From: Nocardioides daphniae
GTDB taxonomy: Bacteria; Actinomycetota; Actinomycetes; Propionibacteriales; Nocardioidaceae
DNA length: 64,000 nt
Assembly (NCBI RefSeq): GCF_004777465.1
Contig: NZ_CP038462.1
Coordinates: 2,480,001-2,544,000 of the forward strand
Direction of reading: 5' to 3'
Shown here piece after piece: positions 3,079 through 15,576 of the stretch. Below the pieces are notes generated by a model, which worked only from the letters and a program-made list of their open reading frames with translations, did not search any database and was not told the DNA's origin. Made by a program: the position numbers and the translations under genes. The first letter of the stretch is position 1. The number at the start of each line of letters is the position of its first letter.

Positions 3079-3465
3079 ATGGACACACCGACGACCCACA
3101 CCGTCGCTTCACCGTCGCCGAGGACGACACGGCCGTCGCGGTCGGCAGCGGCAGCCTCCGCGTGCTGGGCACGCCCCGGTTGATCGCATGGCTGGAGATG
3201 GTGACCTGCGAAGCGGTCGCTCCCTCCCTCCCGCCGGGCGGCACCAGCGTCGGCACCCGGATCGCCGTCGAGACACTCGCGCCGAGCGCGGTCGGTCAGG
3301 TCGTCGAGGTGCAGGCCTCGACGGCGTACGTCGACGGGCGCCCTGCACCGCTTCACCGTCGCCGCCCGCAACGTGGTGGGCGACGCGCCCGGCAAGGTGG
3401 TCGCCTCGGGCGAGATCACCCGTGTCGTCGTCGACGCGGAGAAGTTCATGGCCAAGCTCGCCTGA
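3079..3465 (+). CDS. Thioesterase family protein (hot-dog, FlK-like), frameshifted as sequenced
   Basis: A ~128-residue hot-dog protein read across three segments. It starts MDTPTTHTVA at 3079, moves to another frame near 3100-3107 (FTVAEDDTAVAVGSG then LGTPRLIAWLEMVTCEAV), and returns near 3340 (ALHRFTVAARNVVGDAPGKV to EKFMAKLA). The motif VLGTPRLIAWLEMVTC and the G-T-x-V-G-T-R-I segment fit the small fluoroacetyl-CoA thioesterase-like family, whose members hydrolyse acyl-CoA thioesters. A purine-rich GGAGAG lies before the ATG. The two single-base shifts leave all motifs intact, so an indel error is likelier than decay. It faces the bL37 gene tail to tail across a shared hairpin. Confidence 0.7.
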
Positions 3466-4664: not shown

Positions 4665-5306
4665 CACCACGTCACCGGCTGCCTCCCGGACCACCCACTC
4701 CAGCGTTGCCTCCACCACGATCGCCAGCGCCTCCTCCTGCTCCAGGGGCGCCCGCTTGGGCACCTTGAGGGAGTGGTCGGCGTACGGCACGACGCAGACG
4801 TCGACGTCGTCGGGGAACTCCGACGGGGTGCCCATCGTGTCGCGCTCGCCCTGCACCACCAGGGTCGTGACCTCGGCGCCGTGCAGCTCCTCCAGCCGCG
4901 ACTTCTCCGGCTTGCCCGGCGGGTGCAGCGGGAAGGAGAGGGCCAGGCAGCCACTCGCCCCCACCTGCAGGGCGGTACGGGCGGCGGAGCGGGCGCCGGC
5001 CGAGCGACCCCCGACGATGAGCGGCAGGTCCGACGGCATCAGCCCGGCGGCCACGACGAAGGCCTCGTCCAGGGTCGCGGGCGCGGTGGCGATCTTGCGT
5101 CCGGCGCGGCGCCAGGGCTGCTCGAAGAGCGCGACCGTCACGCCCTGCGGCGGCAGCGCCTCGGCCAGGGCCACGAGGTCGATCGCCTCGATGCCACCCC
5201 CGGCGCCGTGGCTGAGCAGGAGCACCGCGACGGGGTCGACGGCGTGGTGGACGACCAGGCGCCCCTCGCCACGCGGCGTCTCGACCAGCTCTTCCTCGAC
5301 CCTCAT
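4647..5306 (-). CDS. Alpha/beta hydrolase of the KANL3/Tex30 type
   Basis: A 219-residue alpha/beta hydrolase. The oxyanion segment is LLLSHGAGGG (about residue 29-38), the nucleophile elbow is GGRSAGARSA (Ser near 103), the acid is likely in VQGERDTMG and the histidine in YADHSLKVP. The lack of a lid domain and the G-R-S-A-G-A-R elbow match bacterial KANL3/Tex30-like hydrolases, whose substrates are unknown. Its ATG overlaps the stop of the SRAP gene (ATGA), so the two are probably co-translated from the SRAP promoter. There is no signal peptide, so it is cytoplasmic. Confidence 0.8.
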   Translation of the reverse strand: MRVEEELVETPRGEGRLVVHHAVDPVAVLLLSHGAGGGIEAIDLVALAEALPPQGVTVALFEQPWRRAGRKIATAPATLDEAFVVAAGLMPSDLPLIVGGRSAGARSAARTALQVGASGCLALSFPLHPPGKPEKSRLEELHGAEVTTLVVQGERDTMGTPSEFPDDVDVCVVPYADHSLKVPKRAPLEQEEALAIVVEATLEWVVREAAGDVVGNQSA

Positions 5307-6151
5307 CTGCGCTCCCTCGTGTCCTTCTTCTCGATCTCCTCGGCGGCGAAGAGGGCGTCCTCGCCCTCCCCTTCCGCCCCGGTGTCGTGGCCCGCGACGT
5401 CCTCGAGCGGCAGCGGCTCCACCAGCTGCGGACCGTTGTTGCGGTGGTTGCCCACGGCTGTCGAGACCGGGTAGGCCTCCAGCACGCCCGGGGCCGCGGG
5501 GACCAGCAGGTCACCGACCTGCTCCACCTCACCCAGCGCGGGGTCGAGCCAGTCGTCCCACCGCTCGCGCTCGACCATCAGCGGCATCCGGTCGTGGATG
5601 TGGCCGAGGTCGTCGGCGGCCTCGGTGGTCAGGACCGTGCAGGTCCACCGGAAGCGATCCGGGTCGTCGTCGGCCCGGTCGGGGTCGCGCCAGATCTCGT
5701 AGAGCCCGGCCATCGCCAGCACGCCGCCGTCGCGGGGCCGGATGAAGTAGGGCTGCTTGACCGGCTTCCCGGCCTTCGTCACCTCCGAGGTCACGTACCA
5801 CTCGTAGTAGCCGTCGGCGGGGAGCAGGCAGCGCCGCGAGCGGAACGCCTTGCGGAAGGCCGGCTTCTCGCTGGCGGTCTCCGCGCGGGCGTTGATCATC
5901 CGGCTGCCGATCGCGGGATCCTTGGCCCACGACGGCACGAGCCCCCACGTCAGCGTGCGCAGCTGCCGCTGGGCCGGCACCGCGGAGCCATCGGCCTCGG
6001 TGCGCGCCGGGCGCTCGAGGACGGCGTACACCTCCTTGGTGGGGGCGACGTTGTAGTCGGCCGCCAGGGGCGCGGGCACCCTGTTCTCGACCACCTCGAA
6101 CTCCTCGACGAGGTCCTCGGGGCGTCGGCTCGACGCGTAGCGACCGCACAT
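5303..6151 (-). CDS. yedK: SOS response-associated peptidase (SRAP/HMCES/YedK)
   Basis: A 282-residue SRAP protein. It begins MCGRYA with the invariant Cys2, which after removal of Met1 forms a thiazolidine crosslink to abasic sites in single-stranded DNA. Other active-site elements are visible: Asn in DYNVAPT, Glu in LPADGYYEW and His in DLGHIHDRMPLMV. The family shields abasic sites from strand breakage. At 282 residues it is somewhat longer than E. coli YedK (222), with an extra acidic C-terminal tail. The start is fixed by Cys2, and TAGGGT lies 6 nt upstream (leaderless). The same gene sits near sigH in mycobacteria. Confidence 0.93.
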   Translation of the reverse strand: MCGRYASSRRPEDLVEEFEVVENRVPAPLAADYNVAPTKEVYAVLERPARTEADGSAVPAQRQLRTLTWGLVPSWAKDPAIGSRMINARAETASEKPAFRKAFRSRRCLLPADGYYEWYVTSEVTKAGKPVKQPYFIRPRDGGVLAMAGLYEIWRDPDRADDDPDRFRWTCTVLTTEAADDLGHIHDRMPLMVERERWDDWLDPALGEVEQVGDLLVPAAPGVLEAYPVSTAVGNHRNNGPQLVEPLPLEDVAGHDTGAEGEGEDALFAAEEIEKKDTRERR

Positions 6152-6193: not shown

Positions 6194-7008
6194 TCAGGCG
6201 CGCGCCAGCTCGTCGAGCATCAGGCCGCTGGCCAGGTCGCTGGCGGGCAGGCCCTCGATCCAGACCCGGGCGTCGTGGCCCCGCACGTCGACCCCGTCGA
6301 CGAGTCGGCGCAGCAGCCGGACCTTGACCCCGAGGCGGGCGTCCCGCTCGGCCAGGACGGCGACCCGGTTGACGCCGAGGCGTCCGACCACCTCGGCGGG
6401 GGTAGACGGTGCGCAGGGCCTCCCCCAACGCCGCCATCCGCATCGCCCGCCCGATCGGGTCCCCGCCGCCGTCGCCGCCGTGCCGGTCACGCGGCAGGTC
6501 GACGACGACCAGGGCGTGCGAGTCACGCGGGTGGACGCCACCCGGACGGTGGCGGCGGTAGAGCGTCGACAGGGTGCTGCGCACGTGGGCCAGGCTGGAG
6601 AGCCCGGTCATCGGGTCCTCGCAGCTGATGTGGCTCACCACCGAGAGGGTCGCCTCGCTCCAGGCCGCGACCAGGGCCGCGACCGCCTCGTAGGCGGGGT
6701 CCTCCGCGCGGACCTGCTGCCACGTCGTACGCAGGCTCGCGAGCGTTCGTCCACCGACGCGCCGTCCAGGGCGCTCTCCCGCCCCGCCGCCTCGCAGCAG
6801 CGAGCGGGCAGCCGTCCGAGAGGAGCGCCTCACCGACGCCCTCGAACCCCACGGGGAGCCCCATGCTCCCTCCGGGGGTCGCGAGCGAGGGGTCGAGCGT
6901 GCTCGCGGGAGCCGTGGCGCTCTGGCGCCCCCATGCGGCGAAGATCCCATGGCTCCCTCCTCGTTCGTCGGACCACTCGTGGAAGGGACGGCGCAGGGTG
7001 CCTTCCAT
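6194..7008 (-). CDS. Degenerate GGDEF-like domain protein, frameshifted as sequenced
   Basis: A ~270-residue protein read in three frames. The N-terminal part starts MEGTLRRPFHEWSDERGG at 7008. After a shift near 6770-6790 comes TLASLRTTWQQVRAEDPAY and EDPMTGLSSLAHVRSTLSTL, which looks like the D-x-x-T-G-L start of a diguanylate cyclase domain. After a second shift near 6400-6406 it ends VVGRLGVNRVAVLAERD to LMLDELARA. I see no intact GG(D/E)EF signature, so it is probably catalytically inactive or a binding domain. Both breaks keep plausible sequence on each side. It is divergent from the fused ECF sigma gene (about 90 nt between starts), so the two may share control. Confidence 0.5.
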
Positions 7009-7098
7009 GACGCGATCGGAGAAGTTTTTGCCGACCCGGGCACGTGCTGCCCGAATCGCTACGCTGGTCACGTCCCATCGTCCTCGGATGCGAGTGCC

Positions 7099-9427
7099 GT
7101 GACCCAAGCGCTGCCATTGATCGACGAGCCCGGAGACGCCGAACTCATCTCGGCGGTCCGCGGCGGAGATCTGGATGCCTACGGACTGCTGTACGCACGC
7201 CACGTCGACGCAGCCCGTCGGCTCGCCCGACAGCTCGCGCAGCGCGCGGACGCCGAGGACCTGGTCGCCGACGCGTTCGCCAAGGTGCTCGGCGTGCTGC
7301 AGCGTGGAGGCGGGCCCGACGTCGCCTTCCGGGCCTACCTGCTGACCGCGCTGCGCAGCCTGCGCGTCGACAAGGCCCGCGCCGCGTCGAAGGTGCAGCC
7401 GACCGACGACCTGGAGCCCTTCGACCCCGGTGTCCCTTCCGCGACACCGCCGTCGAGGGCTTCGAGAACGCGGCAGCCGCACGGGCCTTCGCCTCGCTGC
7501 CCGAGCGCTGGCAGCTGGTCCTGTGGCACACCGAGGTCGAGGGGCAGAAGCCGGCCGACGTGGCTCCGCTGCTCGGCATGACGCCCAACTCCGTCTCGGC
7601 GCTGGCCTACCGCGCACGCGAGGGCCTGCGCCAGGCCTTCCTCAACGAGCACGCCAACGAGCTCGAGGGTGACACCTGCCGGTGGGTGCACCAGACACTG
7701 GGCGCCTACATCCGCAACGGGACGTCGCGGCGCGACTCCGCGAAGGTCGAGACGCACCTCGACGAGTGCCGCACCTGCATGGCGATCTACCTCGAGCTCA
7801 CCGAGGTCAACAACAACCTCGCCGGCATCCTCGCGCCGTTGCTGCTCGGCGGGCTCGCCTCGGCGTACGTCGCCTCGGGTGCGGCCGGAGCGGCGAGCTC
7901 CTCGGGCGTCATCTCCACCGTGGTCGGGCGCGTGCGCGACGCGGTGCTCGGCAACACGGTCACCGCGGCGGCCGTCGGGGCTGCCGGTCTGGCCGCGGCC
8001 GGCGCCGCGGCTGCGGCGGTGGTGATGGTGATGAGCCCCAACGAGCCCCCGGCGATCACCTCCGACCCGCCGCTGGTCGCGACGGCGTCGGCCTCGCCGC
8101 TGCCCGGGATGCCCGAGGGCCGGGTCGGAAGCGACGACCGCCAGGGCGTGGAACCGCCCGGCGGGCCCCTCCCCTTCGGCCTCCCCACCGCGACGTACGC
8201 CCCACCCACCGCCGGCGCGCCGGGTGATCCCTCGCAGGAGCCGACCGACGGCGGCCCGGGCGACCCCACCGACGCCCCACCCGACGGCGACCCGACCGAC
8301 GCGCCGACGGGCGCACCGGACCCGTCGGACTCACCTGCCCCCACGGACGAGCCCACGGCTGGCCCGACGCCGACCGCTGGGCCGACCTCAAGCCCCACAG
8401 CTGAGCCCACGACTGGGCCCACAGCCGGGCCCACCTCGACGCCCGAGCCGTCGCAGACGCCCTCGGCGTCGACCAGCCCTGACCCCTCCACGGGTCCCAC
8501 CTCGGAGCCCTCCACGACTCCGTCGCCCGAGCCCACGCCTTCGACCACCCCGTCGCCGTCCCCCTCCACGTCGCCGTCGCCGGAGCCGACCGACGAGCCG
8601 ACCACATCACCGGAGCCCACGCCGGACCCGACCGACGAGCCGACCACGTCACCGGAGCCCACGCCGGACCCGACCGACGAGCCGAGCACCACACCGGACC
8701 CGACCCCGACGACGGAGCCCAGCCCTCAGCCGAGCCCGGACCCCACCCCGTCTCCGGAGCCCAGCCCGGACCCGACGCCGACGGACCCGTCCTCGCCGAG
8801 CCCCCAGCCAAGTCCCGACCCGTCGCCCAGCCCGTCGCCCAGCCCGTCGCCCAGCCCGTCCCCCAGCCCGTCCCCCAGCCCGACGGACGAGCCGACGCCC
8901 ACCGACGAGCCCACCCCCACGGACGAGCCGACGCCCACCGACGACCCCACGCCGACCGACGACCCCACGCCAACCGACGACCCCACGCCGACCGACGACC
9001 CCACGCCAACCGACGAGCCCACGCCGACCGACGACCCCACGCCGACCGACGAGCCGACCCCGACGGACGAGCCCACGCCCACCTCTGACCTGAGCGTCTC
9101 CGCGACCTCGACCCGCGGTTGTTGAGCTACGAGGTCACGGCGACGATCTCCGGGCTGCCGGTCGACGCCGTGGCCACCTTCGACGTCAGCGACGAGGGCA
9201 TCTACCTCTACGGGACGAGCACCCCGGGATGCAGCTCGTTCTTCGGCGGACCGGTGAGGTGCACGTTGATCGGCACCGGCGCGCCCCAGGTCGTGAAGTT
9301 CACGGTGATCCGCATCAGCGGCTCCCCGGTCCTCACCATGAGGGTGGCGAGCGACCAGGTCGACGACGCCGACCTCTCCAACAACAGCGTCGACCTGCAC
9401 CTGCACCGGGACTCCACCGATGACTAG
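7099..9427 (+). CDS. ECF sigma factor fused to zinc-finger anti-sigma-like domain, TM segment and Pro/Thr-rich extracellular stalk; frameshifted
   Basis: Start GTG 7099 (VTQALPLIDEPGDAELI). Sigma region 2 covers about residues 12-85 (ADAEDLVADAFAKVLGV). Near 7437 the frame changes, and region 4 follows (LPERWQLVLWHTEVEG, MTPNSVSALAYRAREGLRQA). At ~residue 219 lies a ZAS-type H-x3-C-x2-C (HLDECRTCM), then hydrophobic stretches at ~240-262 (LAGILAPLLLGG) and ~287-312 (VTAAAVGAAGLAAAG). Residues ~375-670 are Pro/Thr/Ser/Asp repeats. A second frame change near 9117 leads into a ~105-residue DUF11/CARDB-like domain (LSYEVTATISGLPV to NNSVDLHLH). It resembles actinobacterial ECF sigma factors with long membrane-bound C-terminal extensions (ECF52/53-like). 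The domain order is seen; self-inhibition and envelope sensing are inference. Confidence 0.75.
8560..9090 (+). repeat. Tandem coding repeats: Ser-Pro dipeptides, then P-T-P-T-D-(E/D) units
   Basis: From about 8815 to 8880 a 12-nt unit (cccagcccgtcg) repeats, coding Pro-Ser. From about 8880 to 9085 an 18-nt unit (gaccccacgccgaccgac and variants) repeats about eleven times, coding PTPTDE/PTPTDD. Variants alternate between two codon versions, which suggests slippage or unequal exchange. Confidence 0.85.
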
Positions 9428-9436: not shown

Positions 9437-10744
9437 GTGAGCCTGCTCCCCGACACCCTCGACCCCTGGCCCGCCCCCTTCGCGTCCGCACCGGTCGACC
9501 TCGTGGTCGACCTGCCCGGCAGCAAGTCGCTCACCAACCGCGCCCTGATCCTGGCAGCGCTGGCCGACGGGCCCTCCGTGGTCCGCAAGGCGCTCCACTC
9601 GCGCGACACCCTGCTGATGGCCGGGGCCCTGAGCAGCCTCGGCGCCGAGGTCGACACCGACGGCGACGACTGGCACGTCACCCCCGCCCCGCTGGGCAGC
9701 TCGGCGCCCACCGACGACCGCCGGGTCGACTGCGGCCTGGCCGGCACGGTGATGCGCTTCGTCCCGCCGCTCGCCGCCCTCGTCCCCGGCGTGACCGCCT
9801 TCGACGGCGACCCGCACATGCGCAACCGCCCGGTCGGCGAGATGCTGGCCGCGCTGCGCGCCCTCGGCGTCCGCGTCGACGACGGCGGCTCGGGTGGCCT
9901 GCCGTTCGCGGTGCACGGCACCGGCAGCGTACGAGGAGGCCGGGTCGTGCTCGACGCGTCGGCCTCCAGCCAGTTCATCTCGGCCCTGCTCCTGGTTGGC
10001 GCCCGCTTCGACGAGGGGGTGGAGGTCGTCCACTCCGGCGCCCCGGTGCCCTCGCTCCCCCACATCGAGATGACGGTGCAGCTGCTGCGTCACCACGGTG
10101 TGGCGGTCGACGACTCGGTCCCCGACCGGTGGGCCGTCGCGCCGGGCCCGATCACGGCCCGCGACCACCTCGTGGAGCCAGACCTCTCCAACGCCGCCCC
10201 GTTCCTGGCCCTGGCCGCTGTCTCCGGCGGACGGGTCGTGGTACGCGACTGGCCCCGCTCCACCACCCAGGCCGGCGCGGCCACGGCCGACATCCTCGGC
10301 CGGATGGGCTGCGACGTCGCACTCGTCGACGAGGGCCTGGCCGTGACCGGCCCGCAGCGGCTGCGCGGCGTCGACGAGGACATGCACGACGTCGGCGAGC
10401 TGACCCCCGCGGTCGCCGCCCTCTGCGCGCTGGCCGAGAGCCCCTCCCGGCTCACCGGCATCGGCCACGTCAGGGGCCACGAGACCGACCGCCTGGCCGC
10501 ACTGGCCACCGAGATCAACGGGCTCGGCGGCCACGTCGTCGAGCACCCCGACGGGCTCGAGATCCACCCCGCGCCGCTGCACCCCGGCGTCTTCCACACC
10601 TACGCCGACCACCGGATGGCCCACGCCGGCGTCATCCTGGCGGCGGCCGTCGAGGGTGTCACCGTGGAGAACATCGCGACCACGTCGAAGACCTTCCCCG
10701 ACTTCGCCGCCTACTGGTCCGGACTCTGGGCAGCCCGGGTCTGA
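9437..10744 (+). CDS. aroA: 3-phosphoshikimate 1-carboxyvinyltransferase (EPSP synthase)
   Basis: A 435-residue EPSP synthase, which joins shikimate-3-phosphate and phosphoenolpyruvate in the shikimate pathway to aromatic amino acids. Signature segments are LPGSKSLTNRALILAAL (shikimate-3-phosphate/PEP-binding Lys and Arg), GLAGTVMRFVPPLAAL (in place of the common G-N-A-G-T), ASASSQFISALLLVG and HETDRLAALATEIN. The length equals that of mycobacterial AroA. A GTG start follows a TAGGCT box by 6 nt. It is followed 12 nt later by rsgA, as in mycobacteria and streptomycetes, so aroA-rsgA is probably one transcript. Confidence 0.96.
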   Translation: MSLLPDTLDPWPAPFASAPVDLVVDLPGSKSLTNRALILAALADGPSVVRKALHSRDTLLMAGALSSLGAEVDTDGDDWHVTPAPLGSSAPTDDRRVDCGLAGTVMRFVPPLAALVPGVTAFDGDPHMRNRPVGEMLAALRALGVRVDDGGSGGLPFAVHGTGSVRGGRVVLDASASSQFISALLLVGARFDEGVEVVHSGAPVPSLPHIEMTVQLLRHHGVAVDDSVPDRWAVAPGPITARDHLVEPDLSNAAPFLALAAVSGGRVVVRDWPRSTTQAGAATADILGRMGCDVALVDEGLAVTGPQRLRGVDEDMHDVGELTPAVAALCALAESPSRLTGIGHVRGHETDRLAALATEINGLGGHVVEHPDGLEIHPAPLHPGVFHTYADHRMAHAGVILAAAVEGVTVENIATTSKTFPDFAAYWSGLWAARV

Positions 10745-10756
10745 GGCCGACGACAG

Positions 10757-11747
10757 ATGAGCAACCGCTACGACGAGACCGACCACGAGAGCTACGAGCG
10801 ACCCCGCCGACGGACGCGGCCCCGCACCAAGGACCGCCCGACCTACGACGACGCGCTCGACGCCCGCGTGATCACGGTCGACCGCGGACGCTTCACCCTG
10901 GACGTCGACGGCCAGCGCGTGATGGCGATGAAGTCACGCCCCCTCGGCCGCAAGGGCGTCGTCGTCGGTGACCGCGTCCGCGTGGTCGGGGACGTCTCGG
11001 GACGCGACGGCAGCCTCGCCCGGATCGTGGAGGTCACCGAGCGCACCACCGTGCTGCGGCGCACCGCGGACGACGACGACCCGGTCGAGCGGGTCATCGT
11101 CTCCAACGCCGACCAGCTGGTCGTGGTCACCGCGCTCGCCGACCCCGAGCCCCGCCCCCGCCTGATCGACCGGGCCCTGGTCGCGGCGTACGACGCCGGC
11201 ATGGCGCCCCTGCTCTGCCTCACCAAGGCCGACCTGGCCGACCCCGAGCCGTTGCTGCGCACCTACCGCTCCCTCGGGGTGCCGTGGGTGGTCACCCAGC
11301 GCGGCGACGACCTGTCCGAGGTGCGGGCGGCGCTGCAGGGCGTACGAGCGTCCTGGTCGGCCACAGCGGCGTCGGCAAGTCGACGCTGGTCAACGCGCTC
11401 GTGCCCGACGCCAGGCGCGAGGTCGGGCACGTCAACGCCGTCACCGGACGCGGCCGCCACACCTCGACGTCGGCCTACCTCCTGGCGCTGCCCGACCACG
11501 CCGGCTGGATCATCGACACCCCCGGCATCCGCTCCTTCGGACTGGCCCACGTGCAGCCCGAGCGGCTCATCGAGGCCTTTCCCGACCTCGACGAGATGAC
11601 GAGGACTGCCCCCGCGGCTGCACCCACGGGGCCGGCGAGCCGGAGTGCGAGCTCGACGAGGCACTGGCCGCTGGCGACGCCGATCCCGACCGCGTGGAGT
11701 CGTTCCGTCGGCTCCTCGCCGCCCGCGAGGGCGGGCAGGAGTACTGA
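10757..11747 (+). CDS. rsgA: Ribosome small-subunit biogenesis GTPase RsgA, frameshifted as sequenced
   Basis: A circularly permuted GTPase of about 330 residues that matures the 30S subunit. The OB-fold N-terminus runs from MSNRYDETDHE through VVVGDRVRVVGDVSG. Then come G4 (LCLTKADL), G1 (VLVGHSGVGKSTLVNALVP) and G3 (IDTPGIRSFG), in the permuted order expected. The zinc-binding C-terminus reads DCPRGCTHGAGEPEC and ends GGQEY. Frame changes occur near 11345 (before G1) and near 11605 (before the zinc motif). All catalytic motifs survive, so I regard the breaks as sequence indels. It sits between aroA and hisN, a conserved actinobacterial order. Confidence 0.88.
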
Positions 11748-11764
11748 GCGGTCGCCGCAGCACA

Positions 11765-11770
11765 TAGCCT
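11765..11770 (+). promoter_or_regulatory. -10 element TAGCCT, leaderless hisN promoter
   Basis: TAGCCT, 6 nt, then the ATG at 11777, just after the rsgA stop at 11747. Confidence 0.45.
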
Positions 11771-11776
11771 TGCCCC

Positions 11777-12661
11777 ATGTCGATCACCGGCTCCGGCTCC
11801 TCTGACTACACCGACGACCTGCGGCTCGCCCACGTGCTGGCCGACGACGCGGACTCCCTCACGACGTCCCGCTTCAAGGCGATCGACCTCCACGTGATGA
11901 GCAAGCCGGACCTCACGCCGGTCACCGACGCCGACCGCGACGTGGAGGAGGGCATCCGCCGCACGCTGTCGAAGGCCCGCTCGCGCGACGCGATCCTCGG
12001 CGAGGAGCAGGGCTCCACCGGCCACAGCCAGCGCCAGTGGATCATCGACCCGATCGACGGCACCAAGAACTTCGTCCGCGGCGTCCCGGTCTGGGCGACC
12101 CTGATCGCGCTCGTCGTCGACGGCGAGGTCGTGGTCGGCGTCGTCTCCGCACCGCAGCTGCAGCGCCGCTGGTGGGCCTCCAAGGGCGGCGGCGCCTGGA
12201 CCGGCAAGAACCTGCTCAAGGGCCAGCGCATCGAGGTCTCCGACGTACGCCGCCTCGAGGACGCCTCCTTCTCCTACAGCTCCCTGTCGGGCTGGGAGGA
12301 GCGGGAGCAGCTCGACGCCTTCATCCAGCTGTCGCGCCGGGTCTGGCGCACCCGCGCCTACGGCGACTTCTGGTCCTACATGCTGCTCGCCGAGGGTGCC
12401 GTCGACATCGCGGCCGAGCCGGAGCTCGAGCTCTACGACATGGCGGCGCTCGACATCATCGTGCGTGAGGCCGGCGGCCGCTTCACCTCGCTGACCGGCG
12501 AGGACGGCCCCTGGGGCGGCAACGCGGTCGCGACCAACGGCCACCTCCACGACGCGGCGCTGGCCTTCCTCGGCACCTCCGAGCACGACGGCAGCGACCC
12601 CGACCAGCAGGCCCGCCGCTCGGGGTCGGTCACCGAGCTGCGCCGCCGCCCCACCTCCTGA
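11777..12661 (+). CDS. hisN: Histidinol-phosphatase, inositol-monophosphatase type (HisN)
   Basis: A 294-residue member of the inositol monophosphatase fold. Metal-binding motifs are [16 protein letters not shown] (Glu), [19 protein letters not shown] (DPIDGT) and [17 protein letters not shown] (WDxAA equivalent). The adjacent order aroA-rsgA-hisN is shared with Corynebacterium and other actinobacteria, where this enzyme does the histidinol-phosphate step of histidine biosynthesis. A general inositol phosphatase function cannot be excluded by sequence alone. It ends in a short Ser/Arg-rich tail. It has its own TAGCCT box 6 nt before the ATG. Confidence 0.88.
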
Positions 12662-15263: not shown

Positions 15264-15530
15264 TCACCAGGGCAGGTCGTCCTCGACCTCGCCGTGCACG
15301 ACGCGCGCGGCCTGCGAGCCGAGCACCACGACGTCGCCGTCGCGCAGCTGGCGACCGCGTCGGGTCTCCACCTCGCCGTTGACCTGGACAGCACCCTGGG
15401 CGACGAGCTCCTTGGCCTCTCCCCCGTGCTCGACCAGGCTGGCGAGCTTGAGGAACTGGCCGAGACGGATGGACTCGTCATTGATGCCCACGTCCATGGG
15501 GTCGGGTCCGGAGCCGGGGTGGGTCGTCAT
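15264..15530 (-). CDS. Small S4-domain RNA-binding protein
   Basis: An 88-residue protein that is essentially one S4 RNA-binding domain: IRLGQFLKLASLVEHGGEAKE, then VAQGAVQVNGEVETRRGRQL and DGDVVVLG. This is the YbcJ/RlbA-like arrangement, whose members bind structured RNA, often on the ribosome. The exact role is unknown. Start could be ATG 15530 (MTTHPGSGPDP) or ATG 15497 (MDVGINDE); the domain fits either. Confidence 0.85.
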   Translation of the reverse strand: MTTHPGSGPDPMDVGINDESIRLGQFLKLASLVEHGGEAKELVAQGAVQVNGEVETRRGRQLRDGDVVVLGSQAARVVHGEVEDDLPW

Positions 15531-15576
15531 GGCTCCAGTCTCGCACCGTCCCTGCCGGCTGGGGTCAGCGCACGTG

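Follow-up and report, generated by a model that had tools for sequence, protein, structure and literature searches.

Can one bacterial gene supply a sigma factor together with its own inhibitor, membrane anchor and outer domain, and which promoters would such a factor serve? The question is raised by positions 7099-9427 of a 64,000-nucleotide stretch of the Nocardioides daphniae genome (contig NZ_CP038462.1, positions 2,480,001 to 2,544,000 of the forward strand; hereafter the window), where regions 2 and 4 of an extracytoplasmic function (ECF) sigma factor are followed by a predicted zinc anti-sigma domain, hydrophobic segments, a Pro/Thr-rich stalk and a small tail. An earlier sequence-only reading had proposed this fusion and had overlooked a divergent partner gene and a shared promoter-like motif, which are the informative parts of the locus. 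On balance, and with moderate confidence, we favor a tethered, self-inhibited, ECF52/53-like sigma factor that drives expression of the partner gene and, in certain species, of its own gene.

A conserved locus with a divergent partner gene

The ECF gene lies in a locus of conserved order, sigR-yedK-[partner<]-[ECF>]-aroA (the names sigR, yedK, rsgA and hisN used in this region are presumably the right ones). Among 80 named relatives, yedK is divergent and next to the ECF gene in 66, and yedK and aroA both surround it in 60; in two further relatives, located where a contig ends, only the aroA side is visible, and the gene has no yedK/aroA setting in 12 relatives that are more distant. Within the family the locus order is also found in another genus, and its yedK side reaches an 8-Mb genus of the same order, probably Kribbella. 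Further genomes compared probably belong to Aeromicrobium, Streptomyces and Streptosporangiaceae. The partner, a gene of ~250 residues between yedK and the ECF gene, is oriented away from the ECF gene in 83 of 84 loci and has a median pairwise identity of 50% (n=23).

The two genes also travel together. Across 58 genomes, 28 have both and 28 have neither, leaving one with the ECF gene alone (G005) and one with the partner but without a syntenic ECF gene (G014). A genome was scored as having the ECF gene when its best hit exceeded 200 bits, a threshold set after the search with the next lower hit at 137, and the Fisher test of co-occurrence (5.6e-14) is descriptive only, the genomes being related. 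The yedK gene is retained by all 16 genus members without a syntenic ECF gene, and for 13 the retrieved stretch also contains aroA. The partner gene is absent from all 16 of these stretches, and the only copy of the motif described below lies on the sigR side of one of them. Judged by this distribution, the ECF gene and its partner act like a single module, gained or lost together.

The genomes with only one of the two genes deserve separate mention. In G005, N. allogilvus, the ECF gene is kept and both the partner and the motif facing it are lost (L037 and L112), making this a natural strain for probing the partner's role. In G014 the partner, with a second weaker match adjoining, stands divergently beside a paralogous ECF gene (L051), as if the pair duplicates or moves together. 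Related partners are also found beside more distant ECF genes (L051, L168, L173, L191, L193, L194 and L195).

A promoter-like motif between the two genes

Directed towards the partner, GTCAT-N16-CGT occurs in 69 of 77 distinct upstream regions. The set of 77 excludes L110 and L159 for their frame breaks, as well as duplicates and anything shorter than 200 bases, and its start codons were picked by script. The letters of GTCAT and CGT were fixed by the search, so the evidence lies in the spacing, the shuffles and the unforced neighbors: spacers of 12-15 and 17-20 gave 0 to 8 regions, 20 shuffles gave the motif in 0 to 2 of 77, and the GC before and G behind GTCAT carry 1.9-2.0 bits where other spacer positions have ≤0.9. 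Additionally, a forward copy (GT[CG]AT-N16-CGT) whose CGT ends 6-14 nt before the chosen ECF start is present in 26 of 77 regions, other spacings giving 0-1, and this placement suggests a leaderless or nearly leaderless ECF transcript.

In the window genome, CGTCAT-N16-CGTY has 14 sites, versus 1 for a reversed-pattern control. Five of the 14 are inside likely genes and four have a likely start ≤300 nt downstream; we claim no regulon, since few sites lie ahead of likely gene starts, and the genome-wide motif counts do not support a large one. The reversed control outnumbers the motif in four 8-Mb genomes (G038, G043, G046 and G048). A second copy within the window is located at 15525-15550 on the + strand, outside the likely genes tested.

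Table 1. Features of the locus in the window
Feature	Position	Strand	Basis and remarks
yedK-like gene	5303..6151	-	conserved flank; name presumed
Partner, degenerate GGDEF-like	6194..6950	-	matches at 6200-6397 and 6399-6743; at least two frames; start at 6950 predicted from sequence
CGTCAT-N16-CGTC facing partner	6987..7012	-	same motif in 69/77 syntenic loci
Sigma region 2 piece	7099..7437	+	frame 1; Pfam Sigma70_r2 E 1e-8
Sigma region 4	7479..7622	+	frame 0; Pfam Sigma70_r4_2 E 3.6e-5, residues 14-61 of open reading frame piece
Zinc anti-sigma domain (zf-HC2)	7677..7778	+	Pfam zf-HC2 E 3.1e-7, above cut-off
Hydrophobic segment 1	7818..7884	+	hydropathy
Hydrophobic segment 2	7956..8033	+	hydropathy up to 2.07; present in most relatives
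Pro/Thr/Ser/Asp-rich stalk	8034..9091	+	about 350 residues before tail; translation, composition
Beta-sandwich tail with Cys pair	9092..9424	+	tail alignment
aroA	9437..10744	+	next gene downstream, 9 bases after ECF stop

Proposed mechanism

Domain order, zinc-ligand residues, synteny, co-occurrence and the motif can all be read from the sequences, and from them we infer the following scheme. The zinc anti-sigma domain that follows sigma regions 2 and 4 in the fusion would keep them inactive, a single membrane helix would serve as the anchor, and the Pro/Thr stalk would bring the small beta-sandwich into or past the cell wall. An event outside the cell would then free or rearrange the sigma part, cleavage of the anchor in successive steps being the most likely route, and the freed sigma would use GTCAT-N16-CGT promoters. 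In most species this would be the divergent promoter driving the partner gene, joined in roughly one species in three by the sigma factor's own promoter. The partner would thereby be a target and possibly a feedback regulator.

Several observations weigh against this scheme. The two hydrophobic segments leave the topology uncertain, and 24 of 77 distinct orthologues have no Cys pair in the tail, a group that includes truncated, frame-broken and other-tailed proteins. The model of the core has a predicted template modelling score (pTM) of 0.50, so that a contact between the sigma and anti-sigma parts is not read from it. The window and its nearest relatives are without the forward motif copy, and most sites in the window genome are not ahead of a clear gene start. 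Genome-wide, the motif averages 6.2 sites in 21 genomes with the gene, 4.9 in 7 with a paralogue only and 2.8 in 9 with none (raw counts in genus members regardless of genome size, carriers' own locus included). Lastly, the partner is gone wherever the ECF gene was lost, so empty sites alone are no proof that this sigma reads the motif.

A rival reading is that a different regulator, such as a further sigma factor of the cell, uses the motif, with the tethered ECF factor having other targets. We consider this rather unlikely, though it has several points in its favor: the motif at the locus is always tied to the presence of the partner, so their joint loss says little, the genome-wide counts differ only modestly, and copies are also present in genomes without the gene. 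However, the same motif with the same spacing stands directly before the ECF start in the 26 regions noted above, as for a self-regulated ECF factor. It also precedes some related ECF genes: of 47 further ECF loci, 13 have it upstream in one orientation or the other, counting one locus that copies a named one. The adjoining sigR is retained in genomes that have no motif there. Recognition of the motif by the tethered sigma is the reading we carry forward.

One gene across two frame breaks

The genome assembly is one 3.56-Mb contig, and the parts at 7099-9427 are spread over three reading frames in the window. The sequence-only reading had assigned them all to one gene and had named 7430-7445 and 9105-9130 as zones to be resequenced. 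The parts are where it placed them and breaks do occur in both zones, near 7437 and inside about 9105-9125 (frame 0 to 2), and the single gene is what the orthologues have. In the window itself, the frame 0 piece (7440-9122) contains region 4, zf-HC2, the hydrophobic segments and the stalk, and the frame 2 piece (9119-9424) contains the tail. Orthologues point to the GTG at 7099 as the ECF start codon, and an own-genome search puts the sigma region 2 match at 7189-7389.

In all syntenic orthologues but L110 and L159, a single alignment covers region 2 to region 4, and these two carry further broken genes besides the ECF gene. Frames were compared across eight locus genes, with N. gansuensis as reference and, of the 65 other named loci in L102-L167, the 51 that are >16 kb. 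Three of the eight genes (rsgA, ECF and partner) are broken in the window versus 16 of 406 tests in the 51 relatives. Nine of the 16 fall in the two assemblies of L110 and L159 and the other seven are all sigR, whose reference reading frame is too long, having been defined from stop to stop. Of 52 genomes, 3 have a broken ECF core, every one with additional broken genes. In approximately the first 17 kb of the window, the genes that match in >1 frame number 5 of 17 comparable ones against one relative and 4 of 16 against a second, and the assembly seems to carry frequent small indels. Since the orthologues are single genes and the window exceeds its relatives in broken genes, the simplest and most likely reading is that the window frame breaks are assembly errors. 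The alternative that the stops mark separate genes is rejected on the orthologue alignments together with the eight-gene comparison.

A decayed pseudogene, with real breaks and the full protein never made in this strain, would also account for two breaks in the ECF gene and at least one in the partner, and a break in the stalk recurs in L035 and a stop is reported for the S. clavuligerus orthologue. We regard this as quite unlikely, as unrelated conserved window genes are broken too, broken genes are commoner in the window (3 of 8) than in the relatives (16 of 406), and the ECF pieces retain their conserved residues.

Further breaks were observed within and beyond the window. The rsgA gene at 10757-11805 is split across three frames, and the genes at 3-1359 and 3108-3450 match in two. 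In L035, at 6-7 kb (G012, a single-contig genome), the stalk-coding repeats shift frame, which could be a sequencing error or true length or phase variation. For the S. clavuligerus orthologue, passages of PMC5826349 place the stop in the proline-rich part.

Sigma and anti-sigma domains

The window protein has sigma regions 2 and 4 without region 3, as is typical of an ECF sigma factor; region 4 scores 23.8 bits in the window piece, just below the Pfam cut-off of 25.7. Behind it lies a domain that fits the zinc-binding anti-sigma (ZAS) type and ends in H-x3-C-x2-C at 7755-7778. The sigma regions and the ZAS-type finger seen in the sequence-only reading are supported (Table 1). Nine residues are invariant in 94 aligned cores, including C194, H220, C224 and C227 (the alignment left out L062, L110, L159, L176, L179 and rows >88% identical). 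All 133 proteins examined, some of which duplicate one another, have H-x3-C-x2-C, and 131 have exactly C-x25-H-x3-C-x2-C. From these ligand residues zinc binding is predicted.

Among solved structures, the family profile finds ECF sigma factors and, in separate matches, the RslA and ChrR anti-sigma domains. When the query is cut down to the zinc region, RslA is still matched (E 2.5e-4) in an alignment that ends before hydrophobic segment 1, RsiW is matched weakly (0.14) and ChrR is no longer among the matches at E≤1. The structure model is of low quality past residue ~250. Its structure matches cover residues 8-188 and include no anti-sigma chain, an absence that carries no weight in either direction.

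Hydrophobic segments, stalk and tail

The sequence-only reading had spoken of a membrane anchor. Hydrophobic segments are indeed present, two conserved ones rather than plainly one: at least two follow the zinc domain in 124 of the 133 relatives. If both crossed the membrane the stalk would be inside the cell, hence segment 1 needs another role. It probably either belongs to the anti-sigma domain or forms a helix lying on the membrane; the former placement draws on the full-profile match to RslA and ChrR and on the core model only, in which the segment forms the helix 241-262 with falling confidence. Segment 2 is then the likely sole membrane crossing.

That both segments cross, with stalk and tail inside the cell and no outside sensing, seems improbable to us. 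The number of relatives with two segments over threshold, even with duplicates among them, and the hydrophobicity of segment 1, which would suffice for a crossing, speak for it, whereas segment 1 stands directly behind the zinc domain with P, G and Y invariant across 40 relatives, the SCO4117-like relatives end in the domain NPCBM, and the tail has a Cys pair. Two cysteines are present in 48 of 48 chosen tails (52 rows were picked by eye and 48 used, so this describes the chosen set) and in 53 of 77 distinct syntenic orthologues, which fits an oxidizing location. From this pair and the composition, the tail would lie outside the cell, as the single-crossing topology has it. One dropped tail (L132) has the Cys pair with different spacing.

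The stalk proved longer than the ~300 residues first proposed: between the membrane helix and the frame-0 stop there are 366 residues, among them P 116, T 72, S 50, D 41 and E 23. The DUF11-like end of the sequence-only reading is weakly supported: 14 of 48 chosen tails match the DUF11 profile at E≤1 (best 8.1e-5), whereas the tail fragment of the window matches no Pfam family at E≤1. The N. malaquae tail is modelled as a beta-sandwich with a predicted local distance difference test score (pLDDT) of 91, and its fold search returned generic beta-sandwiches only (best E 2.9e-3); a search by sequence for a solved relative of the tail gave none that was convincing (best E 0.36). In the 30 proteins common to both alignments, median pairwise identity is 75% for the sigma core and 28% for the tail, and this fast change of the tail argues against a single conserved outside ligand. 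In L043, L044 and L103 the small tail is replaced by bacterial Ig/cadherin-like domains (L043 scanned).

The partner protein

The partner is soluble by hydropathy, with only 1 of 84 above 1.6. It has in common with GGDEF domains a DP[LM]TGL motif (76 of 84), whereas the catalytic GG(D/E)EF signature was found in 0 of 84 partners. Profile matches to solved GGDEF domains (TpbB, FimX and others) are weak, with a best E of 0.013 that does not surpass unrelated matches at 0.012. Pfam and NCBIfam scans of the partner gave no match of note, and none of the 7 partners scanned matched Pfam GGDEF. That it is an ordinary diguanylate cyclase gene merely adjoining the ECF gene, as its motif and the annotation of some relatives as GGDEF domain-containing protein would have it, is very improbable given the absent signature, the absent Pfam match and the co-occurrence with the ECF gene.

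More speculatively, the sigma factor and its GGDEF-like partner may be one undescribed signalling module in which the partner has lost catalysis and acts as a nucleotide- or cyclic di-GMP (c-di-GMP)-responsive cytoplasmic co-regulator binding the sigma or anti-sigma domain. We hold this combined proposal to be doubtful; if true, outside signals from the stalk and nucleotide signals from the inside would be read together at a shared promoter pair.

Comparison with known systems

Fused sigma factors of this design are already known. ECF52, with SCO4117 of Streptomyces coelicolor, combines a sigma factor, zinc finger, membrane region, proline-rich extension and outer domain (passages of PMC5826349), and review passages present SCO4117 as the best understood of the anti-sigma-anchored fusions. 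The ECF52/53-like guess of the sequence-only reading was thus right in kind, and the release mechanism it proposed matches the published model for ECF52, proteolytic release having been predicted for ECF48, ECF52 and ECF53 in the passages seen of PMC5826349 and PMC8999054.

The window protein likewise has the zinc finger, membrane segment and proline-rich C-terminal extension of ECF52. However, the ECF52 outer domain is carbohydrate-binding and the window-type outer domain is a beta-sandwich: no Pfam match to a C-terminal carbohydrate-binding domain was found in the window tail, and the N. malaquae protein gave only sigma and zinc domains. All three SCO4117-like proteins scanned (recognized by architecture) have NPCBM, which we take to be the carbohydrate module of ECF52. 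The SCO4117 locus is beside atrA, not in the sigR-yedK-aroA setting, and the seven SCO4117-like loci (L184-L190) have no adjoining partner gene, unlike window-type loci. The motif precedes 0 of these 7 loci, and the published SCO4117/ECF52 motif, CSGYN-17-SRHA, differs from GTCAT-N16-CGT. In a quick tree, 56 syntenic rows and 6 SCO4117-like rows (the 3 NPCBM-scanned proteins among them) fall on separate branches (Shimodaira-Hasegawa-like approximate likelihood ratio test, 90 and 99). On tail domain content and separate branches we reject a plain SCO4117 orthologue; by its sequence the window protein would work like ECF52 but stands outside ECF52 on two tests of membership.

Other systems are similar in part. 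ECF53 and ECF48, likened here by description only, are predicted to be joined to anti-sigma parts that have one or two membrane helices, and in IutY of Pseudomonas putida (ECF243) the sigma factor carries a membrane-bound anti-sigma part and its release by proteolysis is characterized, though in a Gram-negative iron-uptake system unlike the window protein (both from passages of PMC8999054). RslA and ChrR, with the same H-x3-C-x2-C and profile match, are separate proteins, whereas the domain is fused to sigma here. In the literature searched we found no paper on an ECF/GGDEF-like divergent pair or on the module with partner and motif. The 77-locus motif, the co-gained and co-lost partner and the natural strains free of the module make the questions of signal and target amenable to direct tests in soil bacteria that are harmless.

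Actinobacteria have many sigma factors that are fused to an anti-sigma anchor of their own. Relatives of the part from region 4 through the zinc domain to the membrane number 2769 at E≤0.001 in 7993 scored candidates, so the protein is not rare. By transfer or by contamination, a Sporosarcina (Bacillota) record (L180) also encodes a relative at ~50% identity in this otherwise actinobacterial family.
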